The notes: generated by a model from the sequence alone, not told the origin. A stretch of DNA of 64,000 nucleotides from a virus (IMGVR_UViG_3300042887_002430:28483-92482); one strand, 5' to 3'; counted from the first letter of the stretch, positions 38,495 to 61,478 are shown. Made by a program: numbers and translations.

Positions 38495-39187
38495 ATGTTT
38501 TTAAACCCTAGAGATATTAAAGAATTATTGATTAACGGTGAAAAACCATTAACCAGTGTTATAGATATCACAGCAGAACAATTATCATTAATTGATAATG
38601 CATTTAGTTATGTAACAGATAATGTTGCATCTAAACAAGACCAAGGAAAACATGCCGTACCATTGAGTGATTCATTAGAAGCTAATGAAAGATACGGTTT
38701 ACATAGAACCCCTACTAGAAATGAAGACCATGGTTGGTTTTTAAATGCTCAACAAGCATATGTGGTGGATAGTGGATTAACTATTACTGTACCTAACGAG
38801 GTAACAGCATTGTTGGTTAGTAGACCAGAATTAAATGATAATGCACTTAATGTATTGCAAAAAACATTCCCTTCTGGTTATACAGGTAACCTTTCATTTA
38901 TTTTACATAAAATTAATGGTAATTCTTTCTTAGAAAAAGGTACTAAAGTTGCCCAATTATTCTTCATTTCCTCACCAACAGTTGAAATTATTATTCCAAC
39001 TGTAGAAACTACTACGGAAGCACCTATTGTAGAAACTACTACGGAAGCACCTGCTGAAGCTCCTATTGCTATTGTAGAATTACCTACTGAACCAGTAGAA
39101 TCTATTATCGAAACAGTAGAAACTACTACTGAACCTGCGGTAGTAGCAGAAGAATCATCTACTCCTCGTCGTACCAGACCACGTTAA
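38495..39187 (+). CDS. dUTPase/dCTP-deaminase-fold protein with T/E/P-rich tail
   Basis: Residues 80-165 follow the trimeric dUTPase plan: AYVVDSGLTITVPNEVTALL, a motif II-like VSRPELND, then FPSGYTGNLSFILHKING and LEKGTKVAQLFFISS (GxxxAQLxF). The usual catalytic Asp of 'IDxGYxG' is replaced (FPSGYTG), and the SSL of motif II is absent, so enzymatic activity is doubtful. The last 65 residues are a Thr/Glu/Pro/Ala linker (VETTTEAP repeats) ending in TPRRTRPR. The tail resembles the linkers of the tail fibres, so a virion decoration role is possible. Confidence 0.5.
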   Translation: MFLNPRDIKELLINGEKPLTSVIDITAEQLSLIDNAFSYVTDNVASKQDQGKHAVPLSDSLEANERYGLHRTPTRNEDHGWFLNAQQAYVVDSGLTITVPNEVTALLVSRPELNDNALNVLQKTFPSGYTGNLSFILHKINGNSFLEKGTKVAQLFFISSPTVEIIIPTVETTTEAPIVETTTEAPAEAPIAIVELPTEPVESIIETVETTTEPAVVAEESSTPRRTRPR

Positions 39188-40956: not shown

Positions 40957-43900
40957 ATGGCAAACTTTGATTATCGTAAAGATTCATTAAAAGTAGATGA
41001 ATTACTACCTGAGAATTTACAGACAGAAATTATGGTTTCTGTTTTTAATAATGGGATTAATAGATTATTAACTTCTCCTGATACCGTTCGTTCTGCTGGT
41101 TCAATTGGGCAGAATTATAAAAAAGTGTATAAAAATAGAATAACAGAGGATGTTAATCATAAAGATTATATTCATCGTACTACATATCAATTACAACCAT
41201 TAGTATATTCTAAAATTGCCACAGAAGAGTTTATTACATCATATAAAGATATATTAACAAAATTACAATTCTTGTGTGGTGATGATATTGTAGACCGTCA
41301 AGATAAATGGGCTGATTGTGAACAATTTGATTTTGCACCACCCATTGATTTAGATAAATTTGTAAATTATCAAAATTACGTTTGGGTGGATAATACAGAA
41401 CCAGATTATATTACCATGAATAACTCTTTGACTAGAGCTAATTCTAGGGTTGCAGAATTATCAAAAAATTCGGCAACCGCAACGGTAATTCAACCATATT
41501 TAGATTCGGTAACAAATTTAACAAAACAAATATCAGATATAATGCATAAAACTATATGGGGCAATAATGTTATTGACCATAAGTACATGTGGATAGAATC
41601 TAATAAATGGGTACACAAATCTGATGCACCTGCGGGGTTTTTACCAGCAGAACGACCCATTATAGAATATTTTAGCAATATTGAAGTTAATGAATGGAAT
41701 TATACTAAACATAATTGGTTATACAGAAAAAACATTTTGTCACCATGGATACCATCTGATACCGGTCCAACCGATAGTGAACTATTAACTAGATATCCTA
41801 TTATTGATTGGAATCCTGCTGCTTCATCTATGACGATAGCCAACAATCTAACATCAGTTTTTGTAAAAAATTTAAAATTTACTATTAAAGAAGCTACCGA
41901 TTCCAGTAATAATAATTATTATACCGTAGTATCTAGTACAGTTGATACTACTAATGGTAATACCATTATCGTAGTTTCCGAAACTATTACGGCAATGGCA
42001 AAGCATAACATAGCACAGTCATATTCATATGTTGGTAATACCAATAATACTATGCCTGACGAAAATTTGGGAACTACTGGTGATTTCTATGGAATAATTG
42101 TACCTGTTGCTAAAACTAGTAAAGGGGATAATTGGTTAGGGTTGCATCAACATTGGGCTTGGGTATCACAAGAATTACAGACAGCAGTAAACCATCAAAT
42201 CCAAGATGCAGCACAATTTGAGCAAGTATTTGTAGTAGGAAATGAAGCATATGATACTCAAGCATATGATGCCGAATTAGGTTTTGATGGGAAAACCAGA
42301 TATACCTTCGACGTACCATACATTTATGATACCGATGATTTACAAGTATATATTAATGGTGTTAGACAATATGGTACATATAATGAAGTTATTGACGATG
42401 TAGATAGTAGATTCGATGATGACCCATTAGAATTCACACGATACGAATACCCTAATGTCCCAGTATTAGTATCATCATATAGCATTGATTTTACAATACC
42501 GTTAGCCAGACACGATACAATTCTTATAAAAGTTGGAGCACCATGTGAAAAAGATGTTAAAAAACATGGTATTACAGTAGGGTGTTATGATGAAACAAAT
42601 CCAAACACCCCAAAATTAAAATATAAAAATTTGGTTGAATATCGTTTACATGAACAAGTTAAAATAAATAAGAATCAATATTTGCATTTTGATTTGTATC
42701 ATCCAAATGAACAAACTGCTTATACCGCAAATCCTATATTTAAATATAAGGAAGATATTTCATTTAATTATGATAATCTCCTAATGGTTAGAACTAATAT
42801 AGTTGAAAGTAATGACCCCAATAAACCATATGATATTAATGCAATTTTCGAAAATTTGGCAGTAGATGATAATGGGTTATTATGCTATAAACAATATGAA
42901 AATAGTGTCGAGAATCTATATAGTATTTGGAGAAAATGTCCAGATAATTATGTACCCCAAAAAGTAGATATTTATAGAAATCCTGTTTTGGATACTACCA
43001 CACCATGTGACTGGGAACTTCCTGCTCCATTTATACATAATATCTATAATGAATGTAGGGTAGATGTTTTATATAAAGAATTAAAAAATCATTTTAATGA
43101 TATCCTTACATATCAAACATTATCTTCAGATTTTGCTAATGTAACTTACGTTGCTAAAATGTTAGAGAATTATGTATATTCTGGTGGATATATTAAAGTG
43201 TTCAACGGTAGATATGATTTATTAGTATCCTCTATTCATCAAAACATTGTTAACATAATAACATTAATAAATTATGCAAAACAACAATATTTTGACAATA
43301 TTGATAATTTAAAGACTACTATATTAAAAGATATATTAAGTAATGATAATTATGATTCTAATTATCACATATCGAATTTCGTAGAAAATACGTATCTAAA
43401 TAGAACCTTTTCTGATACTACTACTGTAAAAACAGTTGCCAATATTAAGTATGGTATTAAGAATTGGATTACTACATTGCCAATTCTTGGATTTATGGAA
43501 CCAGTAGAACCAAGACATATATACGATAGTAAATTAGGCATTAATAAAATATTACACCATGATGGGCATTATTCGGATATTTCACACGATACCTTAATTG
43601 ATGCTATTATCAGTAAATATAAAAAAAATAACCCAGCATATATTGAGGCTGATATCAATAGCCTAATTGATATTGTTAATAAAAATATCATCGAAACTGT
43701 ATTAATAGTAGAAAATAAACTATATGACCGTGCAAAATTAGAACAGATTAAATTCAATTTTGTAGATATTATTAATGGTGAGCAATCGTTATTTGATGAT
43801 AAATTAAATATTCTATTTTCTGAATATGCGAAATCATTAGACGATATGGCAATCACGAATGATTTTACTATCGGTGATGCTTTCACTTGGAATTATTCAG

Positions 43901-46900
43901 GGATAGAAACAGAACCAGCATTAACAATTTCACAAAACCCTACAAAATGGGGAGCACATTGGAAAGAGATATATAAACAACAATACAATACCTCTTATCC
44001 TCATTTAGAACCTTGGAAATTACAAGGATATACGGAAAAACCTACACATTGGGATAGTGTTTACTTAGATAGTGGTACATGGTCTCCACAAATGTGGACT
44101 AATATTAGAAATGGTATTATTGATTCTGGATTATCTGCTCCCCCATCTTCTCCACCTACATATACTATAATAAGTGTTAATGATACCGGGACTAAACATG
44201 GTTCATATGATGTTAATGAATTAATACCACCATATGTTAGTATTCCCGCATTATCACAGAATTCATTAATATTTGGTGATATGACTTCAGTAGAAGCCGT
44301 CAATATCATTTCAAAAGTTACTAATAATTATATTCGTCAACGATATGAAGAATCTATAAATTATAATTACGATAAATTTATGGTATTGTTCAAACTACAA
44401 CCATTAAAAATATTAAGATTAGCATTTGGTGATGAATATTATGATACTACCAAAAATGGAGGTTTGTTAATTAACAAAACTTCTAATGCGGTACCATCAC
44501 ATAAAGATATAATATTCCATGGTACATTAGTTAACAACGTATCATATTCTGCACATGGTATTAACCAATGGTATACTAATATCTTACGTTCAGAAAATAA
44601 TATTATTAGTATGGATGATTTTATAACTATGTGGACTGCATGGGAAAGTAAACTATCATACCAAACTAATTCTATCATAAATGACAAAACCTTGATGTTA
44701 GATAATGAATTTTTTAACATTTACCACCAAGATTACTCCGTACATGTAAAAAAATCACCATCTGTTATTGCCAAATGGTTGCATTCATTACTATTTTCTG
44801 TATATAGAAGTGGTACGTATGGATATAAAAATGGGGTTAAAATACCAACCGATGGGAACGATTGGTTATTTACTGTTGATATTCCAGTCACTGGTAATCA
44901 AGAATTGTATTACTACGGTACCAGAAATTATAAAATTAGAAGTGTGGATGTAGTGAATAATACTTTCTCACTAGATGTTTCTGAAGCCATTATGGGCAGC
45001 AATATTACCGAAACACAATTATTAGAAAATAATAAAAACATTTTATGGAACAATAATGAAACCGTATTTGTTGATTATGTTTCACCAACATTAAACAAAT
45101 CTTTCGATTATGCTATTGTAAAATATGATACCAATACATTTGGTCTTTCTAAGTATAATTCAAATACTAATACTACTGAAGTAATAGATTTGTACGATAC
45201 CATAAATTGTTATTATATCCCAGATAGTATTACTATAGGTAGTTTACGTATTGATAAAGATAATAATTTATATCAATACACCGCTAACGGTTGGGAAATA
45301 TTATCTAATAGTTCTAATGATTTTATAGTTTCCGCATTTACTGATATTAAATTATATAATAATGGGTTACCATTATTAATAGGTTACACCATTACGGGGA
45401 CTACTATATCTATCGATAAATCTATTACACTAAATGACTTTACTGTTGTTTTAGATTATACACATCCTGTACCAGTTTACACAATCCCAGTATTATTTAA
45501 TGATGGTGATTTGAAATATAATGCCTCTAATAAAATAATGCAATATAGAGCAATGGCCGGAGTTTGGGTATCATATTCAACTACAACCAATGATTTCATA
45601 TTACCAACTGATAGTAGTGATGTATATATCTACAATGATTCTAAATTATTATCATATGGATACACTATCACTGGTTCTAAAGTATCACTAGATTCTTCTG
45701 TTATTTTAAACAATTTGCATATTAAAATTGCAATTCCTAGCAATACTACAATACAACAAAGATTAGATGAATTTACAGTATTAGATAAATCAAATAATTC
45801 TGATATGTGGTATAATTTGGTATTGGATAAACAGAATGTTAAAAAGATAATTCTTAAAAATGATAAATTTATCGGAATTCAACCAATCATTGATTTTATA
45901 CAAGGATATTATGTATATGCTACTGATAACGGATTTGTGTTAACTGATGAATTAAATCCAAAAAATGATGTTGAATATCCAACCAGAATTAGAGGATGGA
46001 AACTAGAAATAGAAAAATTTATTCATACCTTATATTCTGGTGCTGATTTTACCACAATATTAGTGAATCCTTTTAGATATGAGTTTTGGGTAAACACTCC
46101 AGTGGGTGTAGTTTCTGACCTCCTCAGAGGCCCGTACAGAGATGTTAATCTATACCCTATAGTATATGATAGCCTTGGTAAATCTATCAAGAGTATGGAG
46201 AATCTGAAGCTATTTAGAACAGATAAAAGCTCTCATCTAACATATCCAGAAAACAGTGATAATTTCATCGGGGGCATACATATCTTCTTAGATTATTATG
46301 AACATGTCATCATGTTCAATGATTATACCATCAATTACAATATGATTTATGACCATTTTGTTGGTGTTAATAATGAAGATATTAAAATAAGTCTAAACAA
46401 ACATTACGAAACGAATGGTAGACCTAATATTGGTGGGGGATTCTTATCAAATAACAATATTATTGATAATATCGAAACCGATGCTATGAATTTCCAACAA
46501 CTATATGATATCTATGCTGATACTGAAGAAAATGAATATATTAATAATGTAAGAGCATTATTAGGATATGATAATTCGAAAGACTATGGTACTTTTAATG
46601 CTAAATCAAAATTCTTATTCTGGAAAGGGTTGATGCATCAAAAAGGAACATCTGATAGTGTTAATATGTTTGCTACACAAGGTCATTCTACCAATATCAA
46701 TATTGATGAGTATTGGGCATATCGTATTAGTGAATATGGTGATGCTAAAATAAAACGTGAACAATATGTGAACATTAAATCATCCGATTTTATCAATCAT
46801 AATATTTTGTATCAATTCGTTACTGATGGTTATATTAAAGATACCAAATTTATACAGATAGATAAAAATGATATTACCCGTTGGGATGATACTACCACAG

Positions 46901-49272
46901 ATAATAATGGAACTATTAATTTAGAGTTTTCATCATGTGTTAGAATAGAAATTAACAATTATAAAAAATCATCAAATCCTCACCCATTGACGACAATAAT
47001 AGATACTACATCGTATCCCTACTTGTATTTAGATAGTTATATTGATGATTGTGATATTTTTGTAGAAAACGAACATAATGAATACTTTAATTATCCAGTA
47101 TCATCATGTGTTATTACAGTTCCACAATACGCCGACATTTCATCGGTTATTATTGCTAAGGAAGCTGTTTCATATATAAAATTAACTAATACAACATTAG
47201 AACTTCCAATAACCGGAAATTATAAGGATGTTATAGTCACATATTCTGATGGGACTTCCGAGACCGCAGTAGCAGTACCATATACTGTGGTAGTAGAGAT
47301 ACCATTCCACATTCCTAATATTGGTATGATTACTGTATATGCTAATAATAGTGAAGTTAAATTTACTTCTATTGATAATACTCACATATCCATACACTTA
47401 TCAGATGTTAGCCAATTTTCAAAATTAGCAATATCGGTATTGTTCAATAGAGGTAAATTAGTAAAGGATGTTCATTTTACAATATTAAAATCGAATCTTA
47501 TTAAATTCCATATTTCAGAAATCATATTTCGTGATTTGGTAGTATGTGATGTAAATTTGTTAAATTATTATAATAAATTAACGGCTTCCGTTATTGATAC
47601 CAATAATGATATATTATTAAGTACGGTACCATATTATCATCCAGCATTAAAAATATATCCAACAAAAATATCATTGGTTGAATATATTTCTGATAGTGAC
47701 CCCGCAAACTATGCAGATTTCAAATGGAGTGACCCAGAATTAGGACAAAAATGGTTGGATGTTTCTAATTTAGGATATTATATGTACCACGATAAACAAA
47801 TTTATCCAAAATTAGAAGATAGAATAGCTTATTGGGGTTTAACTTCTGAATGGAGTAGAATCCAATGTTATGAATGGGTTAGCTCTACTGTCCCACCTAA
47901 TGTATGGGAAGATAATAATCAAATTGGTAAACCATTAGCTATATTGTATAAACAAGTTAAAAATACAATATTTGATTTTTGGGAAGATGAATATGTTGAA
48001 AAAACTACATACCAAATAATAAATTCATTTGACCATGCAACCACCGATGGTACATTAACGTTTCTAGTATCGTTGAATGTTAGTACAACTGATGTTTATA
48101 AGCTATATATTAATGAAATATTAACCACTGATTACAGTATTAATATTACCAATGGTGTTATTTCTTCTATTGTAGTTAACAATATTACTAACAAAGATAC
48201 TATCAGATTGGTTAGATTTGCCGATGATGTGACTACAAAAAATATAACATCTAAAAGTAATGATATGGTAAAATATCGTTTCGAATATCCGTATAATTCG
48301 ATTGTTACTTATGATAATATTGGTATTAACGGTGCAACAACCTATTATTTTTGGGCAACTAATCAGATATCCAGAAATTATAACAATCTGTCTACCTATG
48401 ATATAGAACAATTGTTTATATACAATAATAATCCATATCATTTTTACCAAGGATTGGATAAATGGGTTGTTAAGAATGTTAATGAATATTTAAATTACAA
48501 TGATATTGCATTACAGATTATTAAAAATGATACCATCACTTCTGATAATCCTATTGTAGATAATGTTAATAATGTATACAAAGAATGGACTTTAATTAAT
48601 GAAAAAGCTAATAAAAAGATACCATTTATGTTATGGATTCGAATTATAGAATCTATGGTTGGAAAATCTATCAATGATTATTCTGCGGTACCCGAATATA
48701 ATAAGGTAGTATTTGACAATATACATAATACTAACACTAGATATGGTATAAATCCTGGACAAGTTGTTGGTGATAAAGATAATGTTATTATATCTATATT
48801 TGATTTGTTATATGATGGTTCATTCAATATTGATAACATATTGACACCTACTGCAACAGTGACTAGTCTAGCTACCATTATAACATCTATTGCTACAGAT
48901 AAAGAGAATTTCCTGTATTATTATAAATTTAATGATAGTTCTAATTATAATATAAAATATAAGTTCTACGATGATAGAGATATTATACACGGACTTGCAT
49001 ATATTGATTCTGGATTATTAAACAATATATCCACCAAATTAACTACCATTGTATCAAAAGATGGTTTCTTGGATACCTATAAATTTAATGCTATGGATAA
49101 TATCATTGAAGGAATGTTATTATTATATTTAACCTGTTCAACAGAAACAGTAAATACAATATTCTTCCACATTTTTAAAGATATGGTTGCATATAATACT
49201 AAATTGGATGGTATCTTTAAAACATCATTAATTGTGGCAAATTGTGAAATTACATTGAATAAAACATCATGA
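40957..49272 (+). CDS. Giant virion structural protein, 2771 aa
   Basis: One uninterrupted frame of 8.3 kb, the largest in the window. The N-terminal region (NHKDYIHRTTYQLQPL and PIDLDKFVNYQNYVWVDN) is of a type I associate with very large structural proteins in T4-superfamily phages of marine and soil bacteria. The rest is beta-rich, with many Asp/Asn/Tyr/Thr and few cysteines. Around residues 1430-1600 similar segments recur (for example YTITGTTISIDKSI and YTITGSKVSLDSSV), pointing to internal repeats. Its stop overlaps the next gene (ATGA). A tail or baseplate-fibre role is likely by size and composition; no enzyme domain was recognised. Confidence 0.65.
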   Translation: MANFDYRKDSLKVDELLPENLQTEIMVSVFNNGINRLLTSPDTVRSAGSIGQNYKKVYKNRITEDVNHKDYIHRTTYQLQPLVYSKIATEEFITSYKDILTKLQFLCGDDIVDRQDKWADCEQFDFAPPIDLDKFVNYQNYVWVDNTEPDYITMNNSLTRANSRVAELSKNSATATVIQPYLDSVTNLTKQISDIMHKTIWGNNVIDHKYMWIESNKWVHKSDAPAGFLPAERPIIEYFSNIEVNEWNYTKHNWLYRKNILSPWIPSDTGPTDSELLTRYPIIDWNPAASSMTIANNLTSVFVKNLKFTIKEATDSSNNNYYTVVSSTVDTTNGNTIIVVSETITAMAKHNIAQSYSYVGNTNNTMPDENLGTTGDFYGIIVPVAKTSKGDNWLGLHQHWAWVSQELQTAVNHQIQDAAQFEQVFVVGNEAYDTQAYDAELGFDGKTRYTFDVPYIYDTDDLQVYINGVRQYGTYNEVIDDVDSRFDDDPLEFTRYEYPNVPVLVSSYSIDFTIPLARHDTILIKVGAPCEKDVKKHGITVGCYDETNPNTPKLKYKNLVEYRLHEQVKINKNQYLHFDLYHPNEQTAYTANPIFKYKEDISFNYDNLLMVRTNIVESNDPNKPYDINAIFENLAVDDNGLLCYKQYENSVENLYSIWRKCPDNYVPQKVDIYRNPVLDTTTPCDWELPAPFIHNIYNECRVDVLYKELKNHFNDILTYQTLSSDFANVTYVAKMLENYVYSGGYIKVFNGRYDLLVSSIHQNIVNIITLINYAKQQYFDNIDNLKTTILKDILSNDNYDSNYHISNFVENTYLNRTFSDTTTVKTVANIKYGIKNWITTLPILGFMEPVEPRHIYDSKLGINKILHHDGHYSDISHDTLIDAIISKYKKNNPAYIEADINSLIDIVNKNIIETVLIVENKLYDRAKLEQIKFNFVDIINGEQSLFDDKLNILFSEYAKSLDDMAITNDFTIGDAFTWNYSGIETEPALTISQNPTKWGAHWKEIYKQQYNTSYPHLEPWKLQGYTEKPTHWDSVYLDSGTWSPQMWTNIRNGIIDSGLSAPPSSPPTYTIISVNDTGTKHGSYDVNELIPPYVSIPALSQNSLIFGDMTSVEAVNIISKVTNNYIRQRYEESINYNYDKFMVLFKLQPLKILRLAFGDEYYDTTKNGGLLINKTSNAVPSHKDIIFHGTLVNNVSYSAHGINQWYTNILRSENNIISMDDFITMWTAWESKLSYQTNSIINDKTLMLDNEFFNIYHQDYSVHVKKSPSVIAKWLHSLLFSVYRSGTYGYKNGVKIPTDGNDWLFTVDIPVTGNQELYYYGTRNYKIRSVDVVNNTFSLDVSEAIMGSNITETQLLENNKNILWNNNETVFVDYVSPTLNKSFDYAIVKYDTNTFGLSKYNSNTNTTEVIDLYDTINCYYIPDSITIGSLRIDKDNNLYQYTANGWEILSNSSNDFIVSAFTDIKLYNNGLPLLIGYTITGTTISIDKSITLNDFTVVLDYTHPVPVYTIPVLFNDGDLKYNASNKIMQYRAMAGVWVSYSTTTNDFILPTDSSDVYIYNDSKLLSYGYTITGSKVSLDSSVILNNLHIKIAIPSNTTIQQRLDEFTVLDKSNNSDMWYNLVLDKQNVKKIILKNDKFIGIQPIIDFIQGYYVYATDNGFVLTDELNPKNDVEYPTRIRGWKLEIEKFIHTLYSGADFTTILVNPFRYEFWVNTPVGVVSDLLRGPYRDVNLYPIVYDSLGKSIKSMENLKLFRTDKSSHLTYPENSDNFIGGIHIFLDYYEHVIMFNDYTINYNMIYDHFVGVNNEDIKISLNKHYETNGRPNIGGGFLSNNNIIDNIETDAMNFQQLYDIYADTEENEYINNVRALLGYDNSKDYGTFNAKSKFLFWKGLMHQKGTSDSVNMFATQGHSTNINIDEYWAYRISEYGDAKIKREQYVNIKSSDFINHNILYQFVTDGYIKDTKFIQIDKNDITRWDDTTTDNNGTINLEFSSCVRIEINNYKKSSNPHPLTTIIDTTSYPYLYLDSYIDDCDIFVENEHNEYFNYPVSSCVITVPQYADISSVIIAKEAVSYIKLTNTTLELPITGNYKDVIVTYSDGTSETAVAVPYTVVVEIPFHIPNIGMITVYANNSEVKFTSIDNTHISIHLSDVSQFSKLAISVLFNRGKLVKDVHFTILKSNLIKFHISEIIFRDLVVCDVNLLNYYNKLTASVIDTNNDILLSTVPYYHPALKIYPTKISLVEYISDSDPANYADFKWSDPELGQKWLDVSNLGYYMYHDKQIYPKLEDRIAYWGLTSEWSRIQCYEWVSSTVPPNVWEDNNQIGKPLAILYKQVKNTIFDFWEDEYVEKTTYQIINSFDHATTDGTLTFLVSLNVSTTDVYKLYINEILTTDYSINITNGVISSIVVNNITNKDTIRLVRFADDVTTKNITSKSNDMVKYRFEYPYNSIVTYDNIGINGATTYYFWATNQISRNYNNLSTYDIEQLFIYNNNPYHFYQGLDKWVVKNVNEYLNYNDIALQIIKNDTITSDNPIVDNVNNVYKEWTLINEKANKKIPFMLWIRIIESMVGKSINDYSAVPEYNKVVFDNIHNTNTRYGINPGQVVGDKDNVIISIFDLLYDGSFNIDNILTPTATVTSLATIITSIATDKENFLYYYKFNDSSNYNIKYKFYDDRDIIHGLAYIDSGLLNNISTKLTTIVSKDGFLDTYKFNAMDNIIEGMLLLYLTCSTETVNTIFFHIFKDMVAYNTKLDGIFKTSLIVANCEITLNKTS

Positions 49273-52181: not shown

Positions 52182-52478
52182 ATGATTTCAACATTGCATA
52201 ATAACATCCTTTTTACTTTCAATGATGCCTCTGATTCACAAGGGTTTAATAATGTTTCCACTGGTGGGATTGTTTATAAATCCTTCGACCATGATGCTAA
52301 AACCCCACGATGGGCTACAGTATTAGTAGTAGGTCCAGATGTTAAAGATGTGAAAGCAGGTGATGAAATTCTTATTGAGAATCTTAGATGGTCTGAAGGA
52401 CACGAGATTGAAGGTTTGAAAATTTGGATGACACAAGAATCTGAAGTGATGTGCATCCGTGAACCAGATACAGAATAG
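52182..52478 (+). CDS. GroES-like co-chaperonin (gp31-like)
   Basis: The 98 residues follow the GroES plan: an N-terminal strand with NNILFTFND, then STGGIVYKSF as the mobile-loop-like segment, RWATVLVVGPDVKDVKAGDEILIENLRW (conserved VGPxV...GDxI) and a C-terminal strand. T4 gp31 replaces GroES to fold the capsid protein on GroEL; this is probably the counterpart. The sequence identity is low, so the call rests on the pattern. Confidence 0.65.
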   Translation: MISTLHNNILFTFNDASDSQGFNNVSTGGIVYKSFDHDAKTPRWATVLVVGPDVKDVKAGDEILIENLRWSEGHEIEGLKIWMTQESEVMCIREPDTE

Positions 52479-52986
52479 AACTCTTTGGTATGATGGGTCT
52501 ATATCAATAGACCCATCTGACATTTATCAATATCTTGATATTGATAATGTATTTGTTACTCATTTAAATGATGAAATAAAACAATACAATAATCATGTTA
52601 TTGATACTGAACAAATAAAAGTAAAAGATGGGTTAAATACATTCGATACATCATGGAATATTCCAGATACATATAAAGATTTAAATATGATGGAATATAT
52701 TATTGATAAATTATCCAACATATCCGATACATTATCAGATAATGATTTATTAATACGGTATAATAGAATAAAACAAGAATTTAAATTATATGAACAATTG
52801 GATTTGACTATTGTACTGCAAACTATGGTATATATTATTGATACTTTTAAAAAGAAAAATGTCGTCTGGGGTGTAGGTAGAGGTAGTAGTGTATCCAGCT
52901 ATATATTATACTTATTAGAAGTGCATGATGTGGATAGTGTCTTATATGATTTAGATTTTAATGAATTCTTGAGGACTGGCGAATGA
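52459..52986 (+). CDS. DnaE-fragment-like protein, 175 aa
   Basis: The C-terminal block WGVGRGSSVSSYILYLLEV...DVDSVLYDLDFNEFL matches the palm-domain signature of bacterial PolIII alpha (GRGSxxxSxxxYxLxIxxxDPxxxxLxFxRFL). The rest of a polymerase is absent, so it cannot be an active polymerase. Similar short relatives seem to be recurrent in large T4-type phages. It starts with GTG at 52459, overlapping the GroES-like gene by 20 bases; no ATG is available earlier. The role could be to bind a host replication protein; inference. Confidence 0.55.
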   Translation: MNQIQNRTLWYDGSISIDPSDIYQYLDIDNVFVTHLNDEIKQYNNHVIDTEQIKVKDGLNTFDTSWNIPDTYKDLNMMEYIIDKLSNISDTLSDNDLLIRYNRIKQEFKLYEQLDLTIVLQTMVYIIDTFKKKNVVWGVGRGSSVSSYILYLLEVHDVDSVLYDLDFNEFLRTGE

Positions 52987-53278: not shown

Positions 53279-53280
53279 TA

Positions 53281-53307
53281 AAAAGCCCCTCTACGAGGGG
53301 CTTTTTT
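53281..53307. terminator. Bidirectional terminator (convergent genes)
   Basis: AAAAGCCCCTC (53281-53291) pairs with GAGGGGCTTTT (from 53295) around TAC, with A- and T-runs for both directions. It is nearly the same hairpin as at 50063-50088. Confidence 0.85.
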
Positions 53308-53310
53308 ATA

Positions 53311-54351
53311 CTATTTTAATAATAATTCAGTTTCGGAAGTATAATAAACGGTTATCATACTTTTAGGTGCAATAGTAACCGGACTAGTTTTAGCAGTAGT
53401 ATCACCATTTACAGTAATTACTAATGGTGATGCCCATGTAATATTTTTAGCACTGGTGGTTTTATTATATAATGAAAAATAAAATCCTTCACCCATTCCT
53501 GAAGATAATGTAATATTATTAGAAATGTTAATAAGTTTTCCTAAATCTGTAGCAACTATAGTATAAGCACTAGAAGGATTAGCCACAGTTAATCGTTTAG
53601 GAACATTAGCTACTAATAACCAATCTACTTGAGTCGTAGGATTTCCTGAAGAATCATTAATAAAACCATTACTAATTTTTAAAATATTATTGGTAATATC
53701 GTACCATAATTGTCCAATGGTATTATTTCCTGGACTTGTGGGGCTAACAGTAACACTATTGATAGATTTCCATGTTTTGGTACCACTCATGTTTACTAAA
53801 ATTTTACAAACATTATCATTAGTATCATACCAAATTTTCCCAGCAACCTCATCAGTAGTTAATGTTGGTTCCGTATCTACCGTGACTGCTCTACTATCAA
53901 CATATGCTTTATCCAATGTGAATACTGCTGTTGGTACTCCTGCAGATAGTGTTGTAGGATTAGCTACAATTTCTGACCATTCTGCACCACTTGAAAAGGT
54001 TTTAGGCTTTGTAATATATTCAGCATCTGTGATTAATGTTGTGGGATGCTTAGTACATATTAATAATTTTGTTCCAGTATACCATAATTGACCGATAATT
54101 GGATTTCTGGGTTCTTTTTCATGATTGAAATTTTCCAATAAATGAATCATATTTGCCCAAAAACCTTGTCCATATTCCGTAGATTGTTTTCCAAATAATT
54201 CTAACGATGTTGACACATCATGGTCGGTAAGAGGAATACTAATAGTGCCAGTATCATTAGCCAATACTACATTATAGTTAACATTAGTAGTTGTTGGTGA
54301 TGTTACTGGTAAGGCACTAGAATATGATAGAGTAATAACAGATGTTGACAT
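53311..54351 (-). CDS. Tail-fibre-like virion protein, 346 aa (array member 1)
   Basis: The N-terminal half shares the array's domain: VSTSLELFGKQSTEYGQGFW, NMIHLLENFNHEKEPRNPII and GQLWY. GQLWYD recurs later (IGQLWYDITNNILKI), so this protein is built of repeated small domains and has no Thr-rich linker. The C-terminus is beta-rich (VTIAPKSMITVYYTS). Such 'GQLWYD' proteins are virion components in T4-like marine phages. Late promoter upstream at 54386. Confidence 0.6.
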   Translation of the reverse strand: MSTSVITLSYSSALPVTSPTTTNVNYNVVLANDTGTISIPLTDHDVSTSLELFGKQSTEYGQGFWANMIHLLENFNHEKEPRNPIIGQLWYTGTKLLICTKHPTTLITDAEYITKPKTFSSGAEWSEIVANPTTLSAGVPTAVFTLDKAYVDSRAVTVDTEPTLTTDEVAGKIWYDTNDNVCKILVNMSGTKTWKSINSVTVSPTSPGNNTIGQLWYDITNNILKISNGFINDSSGNPTTQVDWLLVANVPKRLTVANPSSAYTIVATDLGKLINISNNITLSSGMGEGFYFSLYNKTTSAKNITWASPLVITVNGDTTAKTSPVTIAPKSMITVYYTSETELLLK

Positions 54352-54372
54352 TATATTTAACCTATTTAAAAA

Positions 54373-54537
54373 TTATCTAATACCATATTTATCATATAAT
54401 GGAATATGATTAATTAATACGGTATAAGACCCTAAAATTACTACTGGTATAATGAAAAAACTCAAAACTGTTGCGGCAAATGTCAATAAAATAACATTTG
54501 CGAGAATATATAAAATTCCCATAATAAAAATCCTCAT
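54373..54537 (-). CDS. Small membrane protein, 54 aa
   Basis: The gene lies between two fibre genes, right after the stop of the 730-aa fibre. Two hydrophobic stretches (FIMGILYILANVILLTFAA and FFIIPVVILGSYTVLI). Start at 54537, or at the ATG at 54522, which has AGGA eight bases upstream. The next gene's late promoter lies within its coding end. Confidence 0.45.
   Translation of the reverse strand: MRIFIMGILYILANVILLTFAATVLSFFIIPVVILGSYTVLINHIPLYDKYGIR
54386..54392 (-). promoter_or_regulatory. Late promoter candidate (ATAAATA), minus strand
   Basis: TGATAAATATGG on the minus strand, 35 bases before the 346-aa fibre-like gene. Confidence 0.5.
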
Positions 54538-54539
54538 GG

Positions 54540-56732
54540 TTAAGGAGTGAATTGTACCGCGCGGATAGCACGGGCTATATTACCAGAACCCCCCGTCAAA
54601 TCTATATTGCCGGTATAAGTTGCCCCGTCCGAGAAATTCAAACATTTGAAACCACCGGGAACCGAGTCCCAAGTAAATCCTATTGTTTGACTTGCAACTG
54701 CCGGAGTTTGGGACCAATATGCACTGGCTGATAATGGGGTGAATGGTGTGCCATATGTTGGTGGATATGGCGATTGTCGTAAAATGTCTAATTGTTCGAA
54801 TGTTGGTAACACCCAATCTTTCAAAACACTTCCATTATTTATGGATTTTATATATTGTATTCTATTTGCTAGTGGTAGACCGGATAAATATTTATTTACA
54901 ATAGCACTATCATACATGGTATAGTTGCCGGTACCGGCATATGGCCATTTAACATACAATTGGTCTTTATTCACATACAGATGATAACTTTTTCCATTAG
55001 TGGTAATATCTCCATAATAATATCCATATATTTTAGGGTCTAATGTAGTAGTTGTCGTAGTTGGGGCTGCTGTAGTTGTAGATGTGGTTGGAGCTGCTGT
55101 TGTCGTAGTCGTGGTAGGTTCTTCGGTAGTTGTTGTAGTTGGTTCCTCAGTTGTAGTGGTAGTTGGTTCTTCCGTTGTAGTCGAAGTAGTAGGTGCCACT
55201 GTAGTAGTCGAAGTAGTGGGTGTTGCTGTAGTCGTTGACGTAGTAGGTGCTGCTGTAGTAGTTGTACTAGTTGGTGCCGCAGTTGTTGTAGTAGGAGCTT
55301 CGGTTGTCGTGGTAGTAGGAGCTTCAGTAGTCGTAGTTGGAGCTGCTGTAGTAGTTGTACTAGTTGGTGCCGCAGTTGTTGTAGTAGGAGCTTCGGTTGT
55401 CGTGGTAGTAGGAGCTTCGGTTGTCGTGGTTTGACCAGCCACTGTTGTTGTGGTAGTTGGAGCTTCGGTTGTCGTGGTAGTTGGAGCTTCGGTTGTTGTG
55501 GTAGTAGGAGCTTCGGTTGTCGTGGTTTGACCAGCCACTGTTGTTGTGGTAGTTGGAGCTTCGGTTGTCGTGGTAGTTGGAGCTTCGGTTGTTGTGGTAG
55601 TTGGAGCTGCAGTTGTCGTAGTCGCAGGAGCTGCAGTTGTCGTAGTCGCAGGAGCTGCGGTTGTCGTAGTCGCAGGAGCTGCGGTTGTCGTAGTCGCAGG
55701 AGCTGCGGTAGTTGTTGAAGTTGGAGTAATAAACCCAGGGTCGCTAAAACCTTTAAGTCCAAAAATACTAAAAAATACTTGCTCATTTGCGGTTACTGTG
55801 TTTCTGTAAACCGTTATTGATGATGGAGAGGTTTTCTCAAAAAATATATCATCTATGATGTCGGCAGAAGCATTATTTTTATTAACATTATGCATTCCAC
55901 CAGATAATGTACAATAATATTTTCCGGTAAACGGCGGCTCCCAAGATACGATAATACTACTACTACCAGTAGTAAAAATTATATTCCCAGTAACATACAT
56001 CAACCCATCATTACCAGCATCGATAGAATAAACACATTTATTACTATCTACTAATGTAGTGGGACTATCTATATTATAAAATGATGATGTAATCTGTAGA
56101 TTTGTTTTGGTATCTATATAATTTTTGGTTGCACAATAACTAGAATCACTAAAATCTGATGGTAAGTATACCGTAGTTAATACAGTAGATGCACCAATCA
56201 ATGGGACATATGAACCTTCTTTAGTAGTGTCAGTAGAATTATTACATTTACATGCAGCATTATCAACATATTGTCTATTTGCTAATAATTGTCCATCACT
56301 ATCTGATGTCAATTCATTCAATTGTAATATTCCGTACATTGGTTTGGTATTACCAATTAACGGAATAAATCCCTCCATCGAAGACCCAAAAGTATCGGTG
56401 GTTAATATATTATTAAGAGTTTCTGTTGAAGAATTACTAATTATTGGCCAATCTTTGGGTGTATGTGATGTACACAATTTTAAAACTTTATTATATTTGT
56501 CAAACCATAATTGGCCTTCCAATATCTTGTCACCAAATTGTGGATAATAATCATTACAAAAATTTTCTAAAATGTGTAGAAAATTTTCATTTAAATATTG
56601 AGTCCATTTAGGGGTATTCCTACCAAATAATATTAATGTGGTAGCTTCTTCATTAATGGTGTTTTCTGGTATAACAATATCGTCTCTACCATAATTAAAT
56701 TTAATAGTATATGTAGGGCTTCTTGTTATCAT
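54540..56732 (-). CDS. Tail fibre with Thr-rich linker and C-type-lectin-like (DUF1566/Lcl) tip, 730 aa
   Basis: Three parts are visible. The N-terminal 325 residues carry the shared array domain (ENTINEEATTLILFGRNTPKW, HILENFCNDYYPQFGDKILE, GQLWFD). A Thr/Ala/Pro/Glu-rich linker covers about residues 335-560, built of TTTTEAP and TTTTAAP units. The C-terminal domain has DWVLPTFEQLDIL, AYWSQTP and ARAIRAVQF, which is the DUF1566/Lcl-C pattern, a C-type-lectin-like fold used for binding. It probably contacts the host receptor. It overlaps the next upstream gene by four bases (ATGA). Confidence 0.75.
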   Translation of the reverse strand: MITRSPTYTIKFNYGRDDIVIPENTINEEATTLILFGRNTPKWTQYLNENFLHILENFCNDYYPQFGDKILEGQLWFDKYNKVLKLCTSHTPKDWPIISNSSTETLNNILTTDTFGSSMEGFIPLIGNTKPMYGILQLNELTSDSDGQLLANRQYVDNAACKCNNSTDTTKEGSYVPLIGASTVLTTVYLPSDFSDSSYCATKNYIDTKTNLQITSSFYNIDSPTTLVDSNKCVYSIDAGNDGLMYVTGNIIFTTGSSSIIVSWEPPFTGKYYCTLSGGMHNVNKNNASADIIDDIFFEKTSPSSITVYRNTVTANEQVFFSIFGLKGFSDPGFITPTSTTTAAPATTTTAAPATTTTAAPATTTTAAPATTTTAAPTTTTTEAPTTTTTEAPTTTTTVAGQTTTTEAPTTTTTEAPTTTTTEAPTTTTTVAGQTTTTEAPTTTTTEAPTTTTAAPTSTTTTAAPTTTTEAPTTTTTEAPTTTTAAPTSTTTTAAPTTSTTTATPTTSTTTVAPTTSTTTEEPTTTTTEEPTTTTTEEPTTTTTTAAPTTSTTTAAPTTTTTTLDPKIYGYYYGDITTNGKSYHLYVNKDQLYVKWPYAGTGNYTMYDSAIVNKYLSGLPLANRIQYIKSINNGSVLKDWVLPTFEQLDILRQSPYPPTYGTPFTPLSASAYWSQTPAVASQTIGFTWDSVPGGFKCLNFSDGATYTGNIDLTGGSGNIARAIRAVQFTP
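55036..55715 (-). repeat. Thr-rich coding repeat (linker of the 730-aa fibre)
   Basis: The coding strand repeats short units for T-T-T-T-E-A-P and T-T-T-A-A-P, with many near-identical stretches and at least one longer duplicated block (two TVAGQTTTTEAP segments). It is the most GC-rich DNA of the region. Repeats of this kind invite slippage and recombination with the linkers at 57200 and 59215. Antisense frames across it (poly-Val and poly-Leu) are shadows. Confidence 0.8.
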
Positions 56733-58459
56733 TTAGGAACTCTTCTAATTGCACGAACGGTTGTATCCATATCAGATTTGGCTCTACTAATTTGACCACC
56801 AGAAATGCTGTAACACCAGACTTTATTACCAGCAACTGAACTTTGGGTACTAGACCAGTATACGGTGGAATCATCAACTTCATAAGCAGAAGTCAGGGTA
56901 TTTGACCATTCTTTTATTTTCATAAGTTCTGTAATGGATGGCAAATACCAATCAGTCATAACATATGACGCACTTCCTGGGGCTAATTTTGGAATTGGTA
57001 TTGATTGACAATGGCTTGCCGCCGGATGTTGGCCATTTATCATTTTCATGATACATGCAGTATTGGCTTTACCATCATTGGCATCAGCAGTATATCCAGC
57101 AACACCTTTTTCATTAGCATCAACACTCCCCCAATATTTTTCAACTTCCGAACTTTTTGGTGACAAATAATATTTATATTTGGCATCTTCACCCATATAT
57201 CCAGGCGGTTCTGCCGCAGTGGTAGTTGTGGTGGTCTGTGCTGCAGTAGTCGTTGTTGTAGTAGCCGGTGCTTCAGTAGTTGATGAAGTTGCGTTAGGTG
57301 CCGGTGCTGCAGTAGTTGATGAAGTTGCGTTAGGTGCCGGTGCTGCAGTAGTTGTTGTAGTAGGTTCTTCGGTAGTTGTGGTAGTAGGTGCTTCGGTAGT
57401 TGTGGTAGTCGGTGCTTCGGTAGTAGTTGTTGCAGGGGCAGCAGTAGTCGTGGTAGTAGTTGTAGGTAACACCATCCCAAATAATCCACATAATGAAAAA
57501 TATACTACTTCTGATGTATCTGATGTTTGACGTTGTATAGTTATTGATGATGTAGAAGTTTTTGAAAAATAAATATCATCTATAACATCTGATGATGCAT
57601 TACCTTCTAATACATTATGCATACCCCCAGATAAAACACAATAATAATTATCAGTATATGATGGTGTCCAATTAAATTCTTTAGTATCTTCATACTTATT
57701 AAATATGACACTACCATTAATATACATCATGGTATCATTACCAGACTGCATAATGTGTTGTGAATATGTAGCAGTTTCCAGTGCAGTTGAAGTATTATTA
57801 ATATCAAAATAATTAATATCATTATAAATTTTAGAAATACTATCAATATATTTTTTGTTAGCACCACTATTTTTATCGGCAGGTATCACCTTTTGCAAAA
57901 ATACTTTAGTAGAAACTGTTGCTTCGCCAACCATAGGGACATATACACCAGCTTTGGTATCAACCACTTTCCCACATTTTCCAGATTTTTCTTCAACATA
58001 TTTTTTAGTTGCTAACAATTGATTATTACTGGTGCTATCAATATGAACTAATCTCAATGTTCCATACATTGGAGTATCATTACCATCGATTGGGATGTAA
58101 TTATTTAAATAATTATCAATATTATCAGTGGTTAGAATATTAGTTAATACTGGAGCTTCAGCATTACATAATATATCCCATACCCTAGTATTTTTATCAG
58201 TACATAATTTTAATTTTTGTGTTGAATTGTCAAACCATAATTGTCCATCTAATAATTGATTACTATACCCAGGATAATATTCATTGTTGAAATTTTCCAA
58301 AATATGTACAAAATTTTCATTTATATGTTGTGCCCAATTTTCAGAATTTCTTCCAAATAGTGCTAATGGGGAATCAATCTCATTAACACTATTTTCTGGT
58401 ATAACAATATCTTGTTTACCATTTTTAAATTTAATAACGTATGATGATGGTTTTATCAT
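56729..58459 (-). CDS. Tail fibre with short Thr-rich linker and lectin-like tip, 576 aa
   Basis: Paralogue of the previous fibre. The N-terminal domain is close (ENSVNEIDSPLALFGRNSENW, HILENFNNEYYPGYSNQLLD, GQLWFD). The linker at about residues 330-420 has TTTTEAP units and a doubled APNATSSTTAAP. The C-terminal DUF1566/Lcl domain shows TDWYLPSITELMKI, VYWSSTQ and TTVRAIRRVPK. It differs from the neighbour tip, so the two may recognise different receptors. ATGA overlaps on both sides. Confidence 0.75.
   Translation of the reverse strand: MIKPSSYVIKFKNGKQDIVIPENSVNEIDSPLALFGRNSENWAQHINENFVHILENFNNEYYPGYSNQLLDGQLWFDNSTQKLKLCTDKNTRVWDILCNAEAPVLTNILTTDNIDNYLNNYIPIDGNDTPMYGTLRLVHIDSTSNNQLLATKKYVEEKSGKCGKVVDTKAGVYVPMVGEATVSTKVFLQKVIPADKNSGANKKYIDSISKIYNDINYFDINNTSTALETATYSQHIMQSGNDTMMYINGSVIFNKYEDTKEFNWTPSYTDNYYCVLSGGMHNVLEGNASSDVIDDIYFSKTSTSSITIQRQTSDTSEVVYFSLCGLFGMVLPTTTTTTTAAPATTTTEAPTTTTTEAPTTTTTEEPTTTTTAAPAPNATSSTTAAPAPNATSSTTEAPATTTTTTAAQTTTTTTAAEPPGYMGEDAKYKYYLSPKSSEVEKYWGSVDANEKGVAGYTADANDGKANTACIMKMINGQHPAASHCQSIPIPKLAPGSASYVMTDWYLPSITELMKIKEWSNTLTSAYEVDDSTVYWSSTQSSVAGNKVWCYSISGGQISRAKSDMDTTVRAIRRVPK
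57200..57462 (-). repeat. Thr-rich coding repeat (linker of the 576-aa fibre)
   Basis: Shorter version of the TTTTEAP-type repeat, with a 36-base unit coding for APNATSSTTAAP/EAP duplicated in tandem. Confidence 0.75.
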
Positions 58460-60588
58460 GGAATTGCTTTAATTGCGTCAATAATTAATGATGCATCAGT
58501 AATAGGTGTGGATACACTACCACCAGTTGTAGTAACCATATCAAAATATGCTTTCGCACCAGCAGTAGCACCGGTATTAGCAATCATTTCTGTAGTAGTT
58601 AGCATGGACATACGGATATTTTTGTCATAATATTTAGTCGCCAATGCATTTACTGCTGTTGTATCGGCAGCCTCATTTGAATCAGTTGTTCCACTAGGTG
58701 GAGCATCTGTAATTAATATGACTGTTTTGGCAACATTGTCTCTCCAAGTACCAGCAAAATTATTATAGGTTTTATCTAAGGCTATGTCACCAGGTTCTGG
58801 TGTGGTACAACCAAAACCAAGAAGGAATGTATTTGTATTAATTTTATTAAGTTGTGTTATAAAAGATGATTTATTATTTGATTGCATCATTTCCATAGCA
58901 GTAATCATTTGTACTCTACCACCTTGTGATGAACTGCTATTATTAAATTTTTGGGAGGCTGGTAATGATTTATAATCGGTACTGCTTAGATATCGTTCGA
59001 GTTTACCATATGAAAAAGTAGTAGTTTCGTCAAATAGTACCAAACCTAATCTATAATTAGTATTAGATTTACTGGAAATGGTATCCACAATATTAGAGAT
59101 AGTAGATTTCACCGATTCAATACTAGGACCCATACTTGATGTAAAATCTACCACGAAAACAACGTCCATCCCATCTTTTGCTAAAGATGGATTTCCTGGG
59201 GTTTCTGGTAATGATGCTTGTGTAGTTGTCGTAGTAGGCTCTGCAGTCGTAGTCGTAGTCGTAGTAGGCTCTTCAGTCGTAGTCGTAGTAGGCTCTTCAG
59301 TAGTGGTAGTAGTTGGAGCTTCAGTAGTAGTGGTATGCCCAAATAATGTAGTGGTAGTAGTTGGAGCTGAAGTAGTAGTCGTTGTGGTACCATTTACAGT
59401 AGTCGTAGTAGTTGGAGTTGAAGTAGTAGTCGGTGTGGTACCATTTACAGTAGTCGTAGACGTTACTGCTGTAGTAGTTGTTGATACTTCTGGTGGGGTT
59501 GTTGTTACTGGCGTAGTGGTATCACCACAACATACGGTTTGAACAGTCGCCACTACTGGATTAACTTTACTAGATAATGCCGCATCTGCATTAATATCAG
59601 CAATAGATGAAATATCTCTTGATACTGATACTAATGGTTGAGTAAATCCAAAAATCATACCATCTACTTTTACTGAACTTCCGGTCTTACGTTTAATAGT
59701 AACAGACTGACCATTTGCAATACTCGCATATACTGGAACATTAACATCTACTGATTTACATACTACCGTCATATCATAACCACTCGTCATATTTGATGAA
59801 GTGATAAATGTTACCGGTAACGGTATAGTTAATGAAGTATTTGTTAATAATGCACTAAAATATATAGCAGTGAAAGAATCAGTAGTATCCGGTTGTCTAT
59901 AATCATCTAATCGACCAGTAACATTATATGTTGTTACTACAAAATTATAGTCGGCAGCAATAACTGGATTGTTAGTAACATTCAAAACCCCTAATTCATT
60001 AACATATCCTACGGTAACAGCCTTTCTACTGTCATCTTTACGATATGGGGTTTTAAGTCTTAAAGCCCCTGTCATAGTTGCTGTTTCAGCAGCTATTGGT
60101 AAATATTTTATTGTACTTTTTTCTCTAAAAATCTCATCAACATAGGCTTTAGTGACAGCCTCATTTGAAATATCAAATGCAGTTTTTATAGTCGATACAC
60201 TAATTGGGGTATCATTTCCTGATAATGGAATATAATCATTTAATACCTCAGGTAATATGTTAGTACCATGTGGACCTTTAGAAGTTTCATCTAAATACAC
60301 TACATCTAAATAATCAGTATTAGGTACTAAATTAATCTCAGACCAACCATTCTTTTTATATACTGATATTTTTTTTGTAATATAGTTATAATATGTTTGT
60401 CCTAATATTGGATTAGTTGGTGCAGAAGCACTACAAAAATTATCAGTTAATCTGATTAAATTTGTTAATAATGCTTGCCCATAATTGGTAGAATCATTAC
60501 CATGTAATACCAACGATGATTCGTTATTCGTAGAACGATATGGGATATTAAACGATTTTCCCGAAACAGTTATATTATAATCTCTCAT
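58456..60588 (-). CDS. Tail fibre with von Willebrand A-type tip, 710 aa
   Basis: The N-terminal part is the shared array domain in a diverged form (NNESSLVLHGNDSTNYGQAL, LIRLTDNFCSASAPTNPILG, QTYYN). A Thr-rich linker follows at about residues 365-465. The C-terminal 240 residues are a von Willebrand factor A domain: DVVFVVDFTSSMG carries the metal-ion site as DxTxS, and VILITDAPP supplies its last Asp. VWA domains bind proteins through a metal ion, so this tip may bind a host surface protein. A VWA tip on a phage fibre is uncommon in my knowledge. Confidence 0.75.
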   Translation of the reverse strand: MRDYNITVSGKSFNIPYRSTNNESSLVLHGNDSTNYGQALLTNLIRLTDNFCSASAPTNPILGQTYYNYITKKISVYKKNGWSEINLVPNTDYLDVVYLDETSKGPHGTNILPEVLNDYIPLSGNDTPISVSTIKTAFDISNEAVTKAYVDEIFREKSTIKYLPIAAETATMTGALRLKTPYRKDDSRKAVTVGYVNELGVLNVTNNPVIAADYNFVVTTYNVTGRLDDYRQPDTTDSFTAIYFSALLTNTSLTIPLPVTFITSSNMTSGYDMTVVCKSVDVNVPVYASIANGQSVTIKRKTGSSVKVDGMIFGFTQPLVSVSRDISSIADINADAALSSKVNPVVATVQTVCCGDTTTPVTTTPPEVSTTTTAVTSTTTVNGTTPTTTSTPTTTTTVNGTTTTTTSAPTTTTTLFGHTTTTEAPTTTTTEEPTTTTTEEPTTTTTTTAEPTTTTTQASLPETPGNPSLAKDGMDVVFVVDFTSSMGPSIESVKSTISNIVDTISSKSNTNYRLGLVLFDETTTFSYGKLERYLSSTDYKSLPASQKFNNSSSSQGGRVQMITAMEMMQSNNKSSFITQLNKINTNTFLLGFGCTTPEPGDIALDKTYNNFAGTWRDNVAKTVILITDAPPSGTTDSNEAADTTAVNALATKYYDKNIRMSMLTTTEMIANTGATAGAKAYFDMVTTTGGSVSTPITDASLIIDAIKAIP
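59215..59520 (-). repeat. Thr-rich coding repeat (linker of the VWA fibre)
   Basis: TTTTTEEP/TTTTSAP-type units with an exact short duplication (coding for TTVNGT twice). Related to, but shorter than, the linker at 55036-55715. Confidence 0.75.
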
Positions 60589-61478
60589 TCCATAAATCCA
60601 ATAATAATGTAATGCACAGTTATATCCTTTGTGGTACTATTATGTTTAAGGATATCTAAGGTTAATAAATCACCTACTGATTTTACTTTTGCCGAAACCG
60701 TACATCCATAATCTTCACCAATGATAGTGACGTGACAACTGGTTGCATGTATTTTACCATATCCGGTAATATCAATTGATTTAATATAATTTTGTGATGC
60801 TATAGACGTTTCACCAAAAATATGATTCAGTTTGAGAGGCATTATCTTAACAATATTCATACCCTCAGCAGAATTAACAGCTTTTGAAATTATTACCTGC
60901 GGTATGGTAGCATCCGCATAGCCTTTAGTGGCTGCTTGCGTTGGAGCAATAAGGTCTGCTGACAAATATATCGGACCATCGGCAATGGTAGGATTCCCCG
61001 ATAATCGTATATAATCATCTTTTTCTATCGGTGCTTTACTATCTACATATTTTTTGGTAACAGCACTAGATTCACTATCGGTTTCTAAAGTATCTTTTAA
61101 TAATAATGACCCCATCATTGATGGGGTACCTTTATTTGGTAAATATTGGGTTAATTCTGATTTTAAGGTTGTGAACAATATTACATTATCTGGTAATACT
61201 GGTGGTTTAGTATATCCTAATTCTACATAGGTATCAGACCCAGTATTAACCTTTAACTTATCCTTACCACTATCAAACCACAACTGTCCCTGAACACCAT
61301 TTAACGGTTGGTTAATCCCCGAAAAATGTGAGAGTAAAGTTAATAAATTGGTATTAATATCTTTCCCATAATTAATACTGTTTGAACCATATAATGCTAA
61401 AGGTGTCTCAGCATTGACCGAACGGTCTGGTACATTCAATGGTGTGTTATGAGTGTCGGAAAATAATATGTTTGTCAT
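60585..61478 (-). CDS. Fibre-array member without Thr-rich linker, 297 aa
   Basis: The first gene of the array operon. It has the shared N-terminal domain (SVNAETPLALYGSNSINYG, NTNLLTLLSHFSGINQPLNG, VQGQLWFD) and a beta-rich C-terminal domain without linker or lectin motif. It may be the adaptor that joins the fibres to the tail, or a short spike. A perfect late promoter precedes it. Confidence 0.65.
   Translation of the reverse strand: MTNILFSDTHNTPLNVPDRSVNAETPLALYGSNSINYGKDINTNLLTLLSHFSGINQPLNGVQGQLWFDSGKDKLKVNTGSDTYVELGYTKPPVLPDNVILFTTLKSELTQYLPNKGTPSMMGSLLLKDTLETDSESSAVTKKYVDSKAPIEKDDYIRLSGNPTIADGPIYLSADLIAPTQAATKGYADATIPQVIISKAVNSAEGMNIVKIMPLKLNHIFGETSIASQNYIKSIDITGYGKIHATSCHVTIIGEDYGCTVSAKVKSVGDLLTLDILKHNSTTKDITVHYIIIGFME

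Follow-up and report, generated by a model that had tools for sequence, protein, structure and literature searches.

The window analyzed here comprises the right-hand 64 kb (64,000 nucleotides) of the IMG/VR virus record IMGVR_UViG_3300042887_002430, a genome fragment of 92,482 bases. At positions 53311-61478 it carries an array of five adjoining open reading frames (ORFs), all on the minus strand, whose products each begin with a domain of about 85 amino acids (aa), called the base in the following. In genes 2-5 the base is followed by YVD-type repeats, which are common in phage fibres, and by a beta domain. Genes 2, 3 and 4 continue with a Thr-rich tether and an additional C-terminal domain, the tip; the flanking genes 1 and 5 lack both of these. 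Every one of the five frames is open, and genes 2-5 are chained by 4-base ATGA start-stop overlaps. Judged from its consensus match, the hairpin behind the array is likely its terminator. The coordinates are summarized in Table 1.

Table 1. Features of the five-gene array and its surroundings, positions counted within the window.
Feature	Position	Strand	Description
Array gene 1	53311..54351	-	346 aa; base with repeated G-x-LW-YD motifs, different C-terminal beta-rich end; no tether
Array gene 2	54540..56732	-	730 aa; base, repeats, beta domain, longest Thr-rich tether, weakly Lcl_C-like tip
Array gene 3	56729..58459	-	576 aa; base, repeats, beta domain, Thr-rich tether, Lcl_C/DUF1566 tip
Array gene 4	58456..60588	-	710 aa; base, repeats, beta domain, Thr-rich tether, VWA tip
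Array gene 5	60585..61478	-	297 aa; base (residues ~3-82), two YVD-type repeats, C-terminal beta domain; no tether
Gene 2 tether	55014..55754	-	residues 327-573, 247 aa, 54% Thr; DNA tandem repeats with periods 24, 48 and 96
Gene 3 tether	57191..57490	-	residues 324-423, 100 aa, 44% Thr
Gene 4 tether	59170..59559	-	residues 344-473, 130 aa, 50% Thr
Gene 2 tip, Lcl_C-like	54543..55013	-	21.7 bits versus 34.9, E 2.6e-4; below cut-off
Gene 3 tip, Lcl_C/DUF1566 (PF07603)	56732..57190	-	36.0 bits trimmed versus cut-off 34.9
Gene 4 tip, VWA (PF00092)	58459..59166	-	residues 475-710; 34.2 bits versus cut-off 23.8
Hairpin with T-run, AAAAAGCCCCTCTACGAGGGGCTTTTT	53280..53306	.	strong; just behind the 3' end of the array; consensus match only
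Giant virion structural protein (phrog_10938)	40957..49272	+	2771 aa; profile match

A hidden Markov model (HMM) of the base was built from 211 base domains of other phages, with the sequences of the window excluded. In the 92.5-kb record this model matched exactly the five array ORFs (E 2.9e-29 to 9.1e-17), so that the shared base lies far beyond chance. The external PHROG profiles 14394 and 15511 matched four of the five genes (E about 7e-6 to 1e-8). A common N-terminal domain in five neighbouring genes had been proposed before in a reading of this DNA made without database searches (the sequence-only reading), and this proposal was borne out by the window-free HMM. The structural model of the base reached a predicted local distance difference test (pLDDT) value of about 85 for residues 1-100. 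Its best fold matches in the PDB were R-pyocin tail fibres, a weak result (E 6e-3) which possibly concerns the beta domain instead.

No other ORF of the record comes near genes 2, 3 and 4 in Thr content. The tips of these three genes were recognized with different clarity. The VWA domain of gene 4 scored well above the cut-off, and the Lcl_C domain of gene 3 passed it in trimmed form (31.8 bits in the whole protein) and was similar to tips of the related record G016 (E 8e-10). The tip of gene 2 is remotely alike that of gene 3 (24%, E 8e-5), and its AlphaFold model, computed from two sequences, was unusable with a pLDDT of 33. From the earlier picture of three tethered genes ending in VWA or DUF1566 tips, the tethers, the VWA tip and the gene 3 tip consequently stood, and the gene 2 tip fell below the cut-off. 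Close orthologs of the whole gene 3 protein and of both Lcl_C-type tips were sought in IMG/VR and none were found. As Pfam gave no family for the middle beta domain, it is its position, the ending of its sequence and the weak fold matches which lead us to read it as resembling a terminal fibre knob, like which it ends. Overall, the architecture resembles that of a fibre to which a further adhesion domain has been attached by a leash. With respect to glycosylated tethers, Glycos_transf_2 was sought in G000 and none was found; Xanthomonas phage XacN1 was reported with at least two virion glycoproteins (PMC5852040). A Thr/Glu/Ala/Pro-rich tail (TTTEAP...), like the array tethers, was observed on a dUTPase/dCTP-deaminase-like protein at 38495-39187 of the window.

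The base is found in a range of other phages. Profile searches detected one copy each in RaK2, 121Q and Atu_ph07, two in Vibrio phage 2.275.O, five in PA5oct and six in RAS14. In the PA5oct record, all five base-domain proteins are marked as detected by electrospray ionization tandem mass spectrometry (ESI-MS/MS), and two bear the names tail fibre protein and tail protein; the C-terminus of one PA5oct base-domain protein is formed by the T4 baseplate Gp10_C domain (E 9.8e-24). Other base homologues end in tail Collar or Peptidase_S74 fibre chaperone domains. In IMG/VR, 21 relatives were identified, and where the available stretch was long enough they mostly had 3-5 adjacent base genes. A DNA pattern for the base motif matched at least 120 stretches; the base was present in all 80 that were examined, 47 of which held two or more base genes. 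Array sizes in environmental viruses ranged from 2 to 9 base genes, and tethers on the base were rare in the sample of base-motif stretches. Given their frequency in IMG/VR, base arrays as such are not new. The base itself is a widespread domain of jumbo phages such as RaK2, 121Q and PA5oct, with a predicted place in the virion. The sequence-only reading had named absence of the proteins from virions as the observation that would speak against it; this is contradicted as far as homology to the ESI-MS/MS-marked proteins of PA5oct reaches.

The closest cultured relatives, as determined by DNA polymerase, are XacN1 and the Stenotrophomonas phages CM1 and RAS14. XacN1 carries six base genes, ORF232-237 (L201 1549-10605), all annotated hypothetical. 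Each gene of the XacN1 array has its ortholog in the array of RAS14, with bases 57-65% identical and a T/P/S-rich tether in each of the six genes; CM1 is identical to RAS14 across the array. Four of the six tip pairs correspond (37-54% identity). The tips of ORF234/WAX21724 and ORF233/WAX21725 are unrelated and score at the level of shuffled sequences. Within XacN1, the tips of ORF233 and ORF234 are 75% identical on bases which are 61% alike, a pattern that copying of a tip between bases would produce. As for annotation, the RAS14 base-domain gene WAX21725 (L011 9965-11008) is listed as D-alanyl-D-alanine carboxypeptidase, a function for which its base-tether-tip sequence gives no indication.

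Differences of the same kind became visible among environmental relatives. Between the IMG/VR stretches L042 and L060, the similarity of gene 3 extends over its full length (67-100% per 60-residue block). In gene 1 the base is 76% and the middle about 55% identical, and the protein ends in a Collar domain in one stretch (weak, E 0.008) and in Peptidase_S74 in the other (E 1e-13). Among 189 complete base genes, the last 150 residues were unrelated in 125 of 778 pairs at a base identity of 65-80% and in 955 of 2198 pairs at 55-65%, counts which are descriptive, as the pairs are not independent. Relatives of the window's VWA tip were found in L182 and L183, 62-63% identical over the whole length and, as in the window, placed behind a (T)5-KAP tether. 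The N-terminus of these proteins is phrog_11259, the family of 121Q gp576 and PA5oct gp357, and the DNA similarity to the window starts inside the tether. When phrog_11259 (121Q gp576 type) was sought in G000, it was not found. A second kind of array was observed at L183 3494-7551, where three adjacent genes share the phrog_11259 anchor and the middle one carries a Thr-rich tether and a VWA tip. G016, the record behind L182, contains nine base-domain genes in the neighbourhood of a terminase gene. Long tethers precede the tip in four of the nine, and the tips include two Lcl_C domains and one glycine-rich domain. Taken together with the VWA protein of L182, this means that related phages place the same kinds of tip on different anchors.

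From the unrelated tips of XacN1 and RAS14 and from the VWA tip on the phrog_11259 anchor it follows, at the level of sequence comparison, that tips are exchanged on fixed bases and that tether plus tip can move between anchor families. The sequence-only reading had postulated a fixed base with exchangeable tips, which would give a wide or changeable host range, and possibly several fibres per particle, and had asked for a comparison of the array in related phages. Exchange was found in this comparison (two of six tips unrelated on 57-65% identical bases in XacN1/RAS14, gene 1 of L042/L060, the VWA tip on another anchor), which contradicts tips identical in all relatives, and the presence of several different fibres in one genome found support as well.

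We now turn to what the array might do. In our judgement it probably encodes paralogous virion adhesins, i.e. receptor-binding proteins, of a jumbo-type myovirus near XacN1 and RAS14, in which the base docks and the tips are replaced by recombination. The N-terminal domain of about 85 aa would dock each protein to the particle, most likely to the tail baseplate. Three of the genes would place an extra adhesion domain past the beta domain, on a flexible tether that is rich in Thr and 100-247 aa long. Comparison with the relatives shows that tips, or tether plus tip, are replaced while the bases stay, and the route of exchange may be recombination within the repetitive DNA of the tether. The VWA and Lcl_C tips would bind ligands, and with several different tips displayed per particle several surface ligands could be bound.

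We are aware of a number of points which weigh against this interpretation. A solved relative of the base was sought at the sequence level and none was found, and no PDB match with E < 1e-3 came out of the fold search with the base model; docking is thus deduced from the position and repetition of the domain and from its homologues. The category assigned to PHROG 14394 is "head and packaging". The array is known here from the genes of a fragment and its presence in the virion is predicted by homology, and the evidence for tip replacement comes from relatives. An ortholog of the exact window array was not seen, and the phages holding the VWA tip of the window carry it on another anchor. The presumed role of the tips as binders derives from their domain family. 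Finally, the description of XacN1 states that no tail fibre homologs were detected and no fibres were visible in electron microscopy (EM) (PMC5852040). The six base genes suggest that XacN1, published as fibre-less, has an overlooked adhesin array.

A bolder extension, which we put forward tentatively and believe less readily than the receptor-binding interpretation itself, is that the Thr-rich tether plus adhesion domain forms a mobile cassette. It would jump between unrelated anchors (the base and phrog_11259) via recombination in tether DNA. In XacN1 and other jumbo phages described as lacking fibres, such tethered tips would be the principal means of receptor binding, one that EM does not show.

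The filing of PHROG 14394 as a head and packaging virion structural protein fits a different location, in which the array proteins are head fibres or capsid decorations sticking the particle to surfaces or mucus, not receptor-binding proteins of the tail. Capsids of other phages display Ig-like or lectin-like surface domains. However, baseplate Gp10_C, tail Collar and Peptidase_S74 fibre chaperone domains form the C-termini of homologues, two homologues are called tail fibre protein and tail protein in the PA5oct record, and the top PDB fold matches, though weak, include R-pyocin tail fibres, which makes a head location unlikely in our view.

Change of the tips within a lineage instead of by exchange was considered as well. 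The array would then be the target set of a diversity-generating retroelement (DGR), with a reverse transcriptase encoded elsewhere hypermutating the Lcl_C/DUF1566 C-termini. For tips of the DUF1566 kind, a DGR is the switching device that first comes to mind. The tips end in a layout of DW-LP, YWSS and RAIR, which we take to be typical of the DUF1566 family of DGR variable proteins. C-terminal domains of the DUF1566/C-type-lectin-like kind are known as DGR variable proteins (PMC4159848). However, the RVT_1 reverse transcriptase (PF00078) gave no match in the 92.5-kb record nor in 17 related records, all of them fragments, and blastn revealed no second copy of tip DNA as a template repeat in the 92.5-kb record, itself a fragment. 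With neither reverse transcriptase nor template repeat, DGR switching is not supported, and we rate it as very improbable. Least credible of all are duplication relics or a passive reservoir with the tethers as functionless simple-sequence expansion, for although the tethers are low-complexity tandem DNA repeats which easily expand, the five frames are open and four of them chained by start-stop overlaps, all six orthologous genes keep the tether between XacN1 and RAS14, and tethered tips recur in G016, L183, RAS14 and XacN1.

Beyond the array, the record encodes a family-B DNA polymerase, a ribonucleotide reductase, SbcC/SbcD and the giant virion protein listed in Table 1. In PA5oct, RaK2 and 121Q, too, giant virion proteins are encoded close to genes with the base; close orthologs of the 2771-aa protein were sought in IMG/VR and none were found. 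Adjoining the array, at 52459-52986, a stand-alone piece of 175 aa is related to bacterial DNA polymerase III alpha (PF07733, E 1.8e-11; phrog_11127). The family-B DNA polymerase (26727-30431) appears to bear an intein (Intein_splicing PF14890, residues 780-964, 48.9 bits versus cut-off 35.8). A weaker intein-like match below the cut-off was seen at residues 699-807 of the ribonucleotide reductase large subunit (6900-9713; E 1.4e-4).

It is textbook knowledge that receptor-binding proteins can combine a conserved anchor at the N-terminus with C-terminal parts open to exchange. Recent shuffling in tail fibres (PMC10684548), multi-fibre jumbo phages (PMC10253068, PMC9700779) and VWA domains in fibre or baseplate genes, swaps included (PMC2147016, PMC12923769), are documented. 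The arrays of XacN1 (ORF232-237) and RAS14/CM1 come close to the window, with six adjacent genes of the same base family, T/P/S-rich tethers of ~80-120 aa and different tips; however, no VWA or Lcl_C was recognized in the tips inspected, and the tethers are Pro/Ser/Thr-mixed, whereas those of the window consist of Thr runs. PA5oct gp358/gp359 and gp316-318 (PHROG 14394/15511 base) are ESI-MS/MS-marked products of neighbouring genes with the same base and different C-terminal domains, but lack Thr-rich tethers and have Gp10_C and other fibre-type ends as tips. The branched tail fibre sets of RaK2 and phiKp24 (PMC10253068, PMC9700779) share many fibres, N-terminal attachment and variable C-terminal receptor or enzyme domains, but they use T4gp10-like branching and depolymerase domains, and RaK2 has one copy of the base. 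Phage 0305phi8-36 gp164 and the eCIS eBAP4 fibres (PMC2147016, PMC12923769) have a VWA domain in a fibre/baseplate gene, swapped between relatives or on a baseplate anchor; their anchors are different, and an array with Thr-rich tethers was not seen described there.

In the open-access literature, to which our survey was confined, we did not find described the base family as a tethered-adhesin array, the array in XacN1 or the movement of tether plus tip between anchor families. This absence is weak evidence that, within the known theme of modular receptor-binding proteins to which the array would belong, the tethered-adhesin array on the base, its presence in XacN1 and the movement of the cassette between anchors may be new. 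The array would provide a likely receptor-binding set for a lineage of jumbo phages that has XacN1, described as being without tail fibres, as a cultured member. It further leads to a testable rule for the site of tip exchange in such phages, namely at the tether, and the base profile offers a handle for candidate receptor-binding proteins annotated hypothetical in many environmental viruses.

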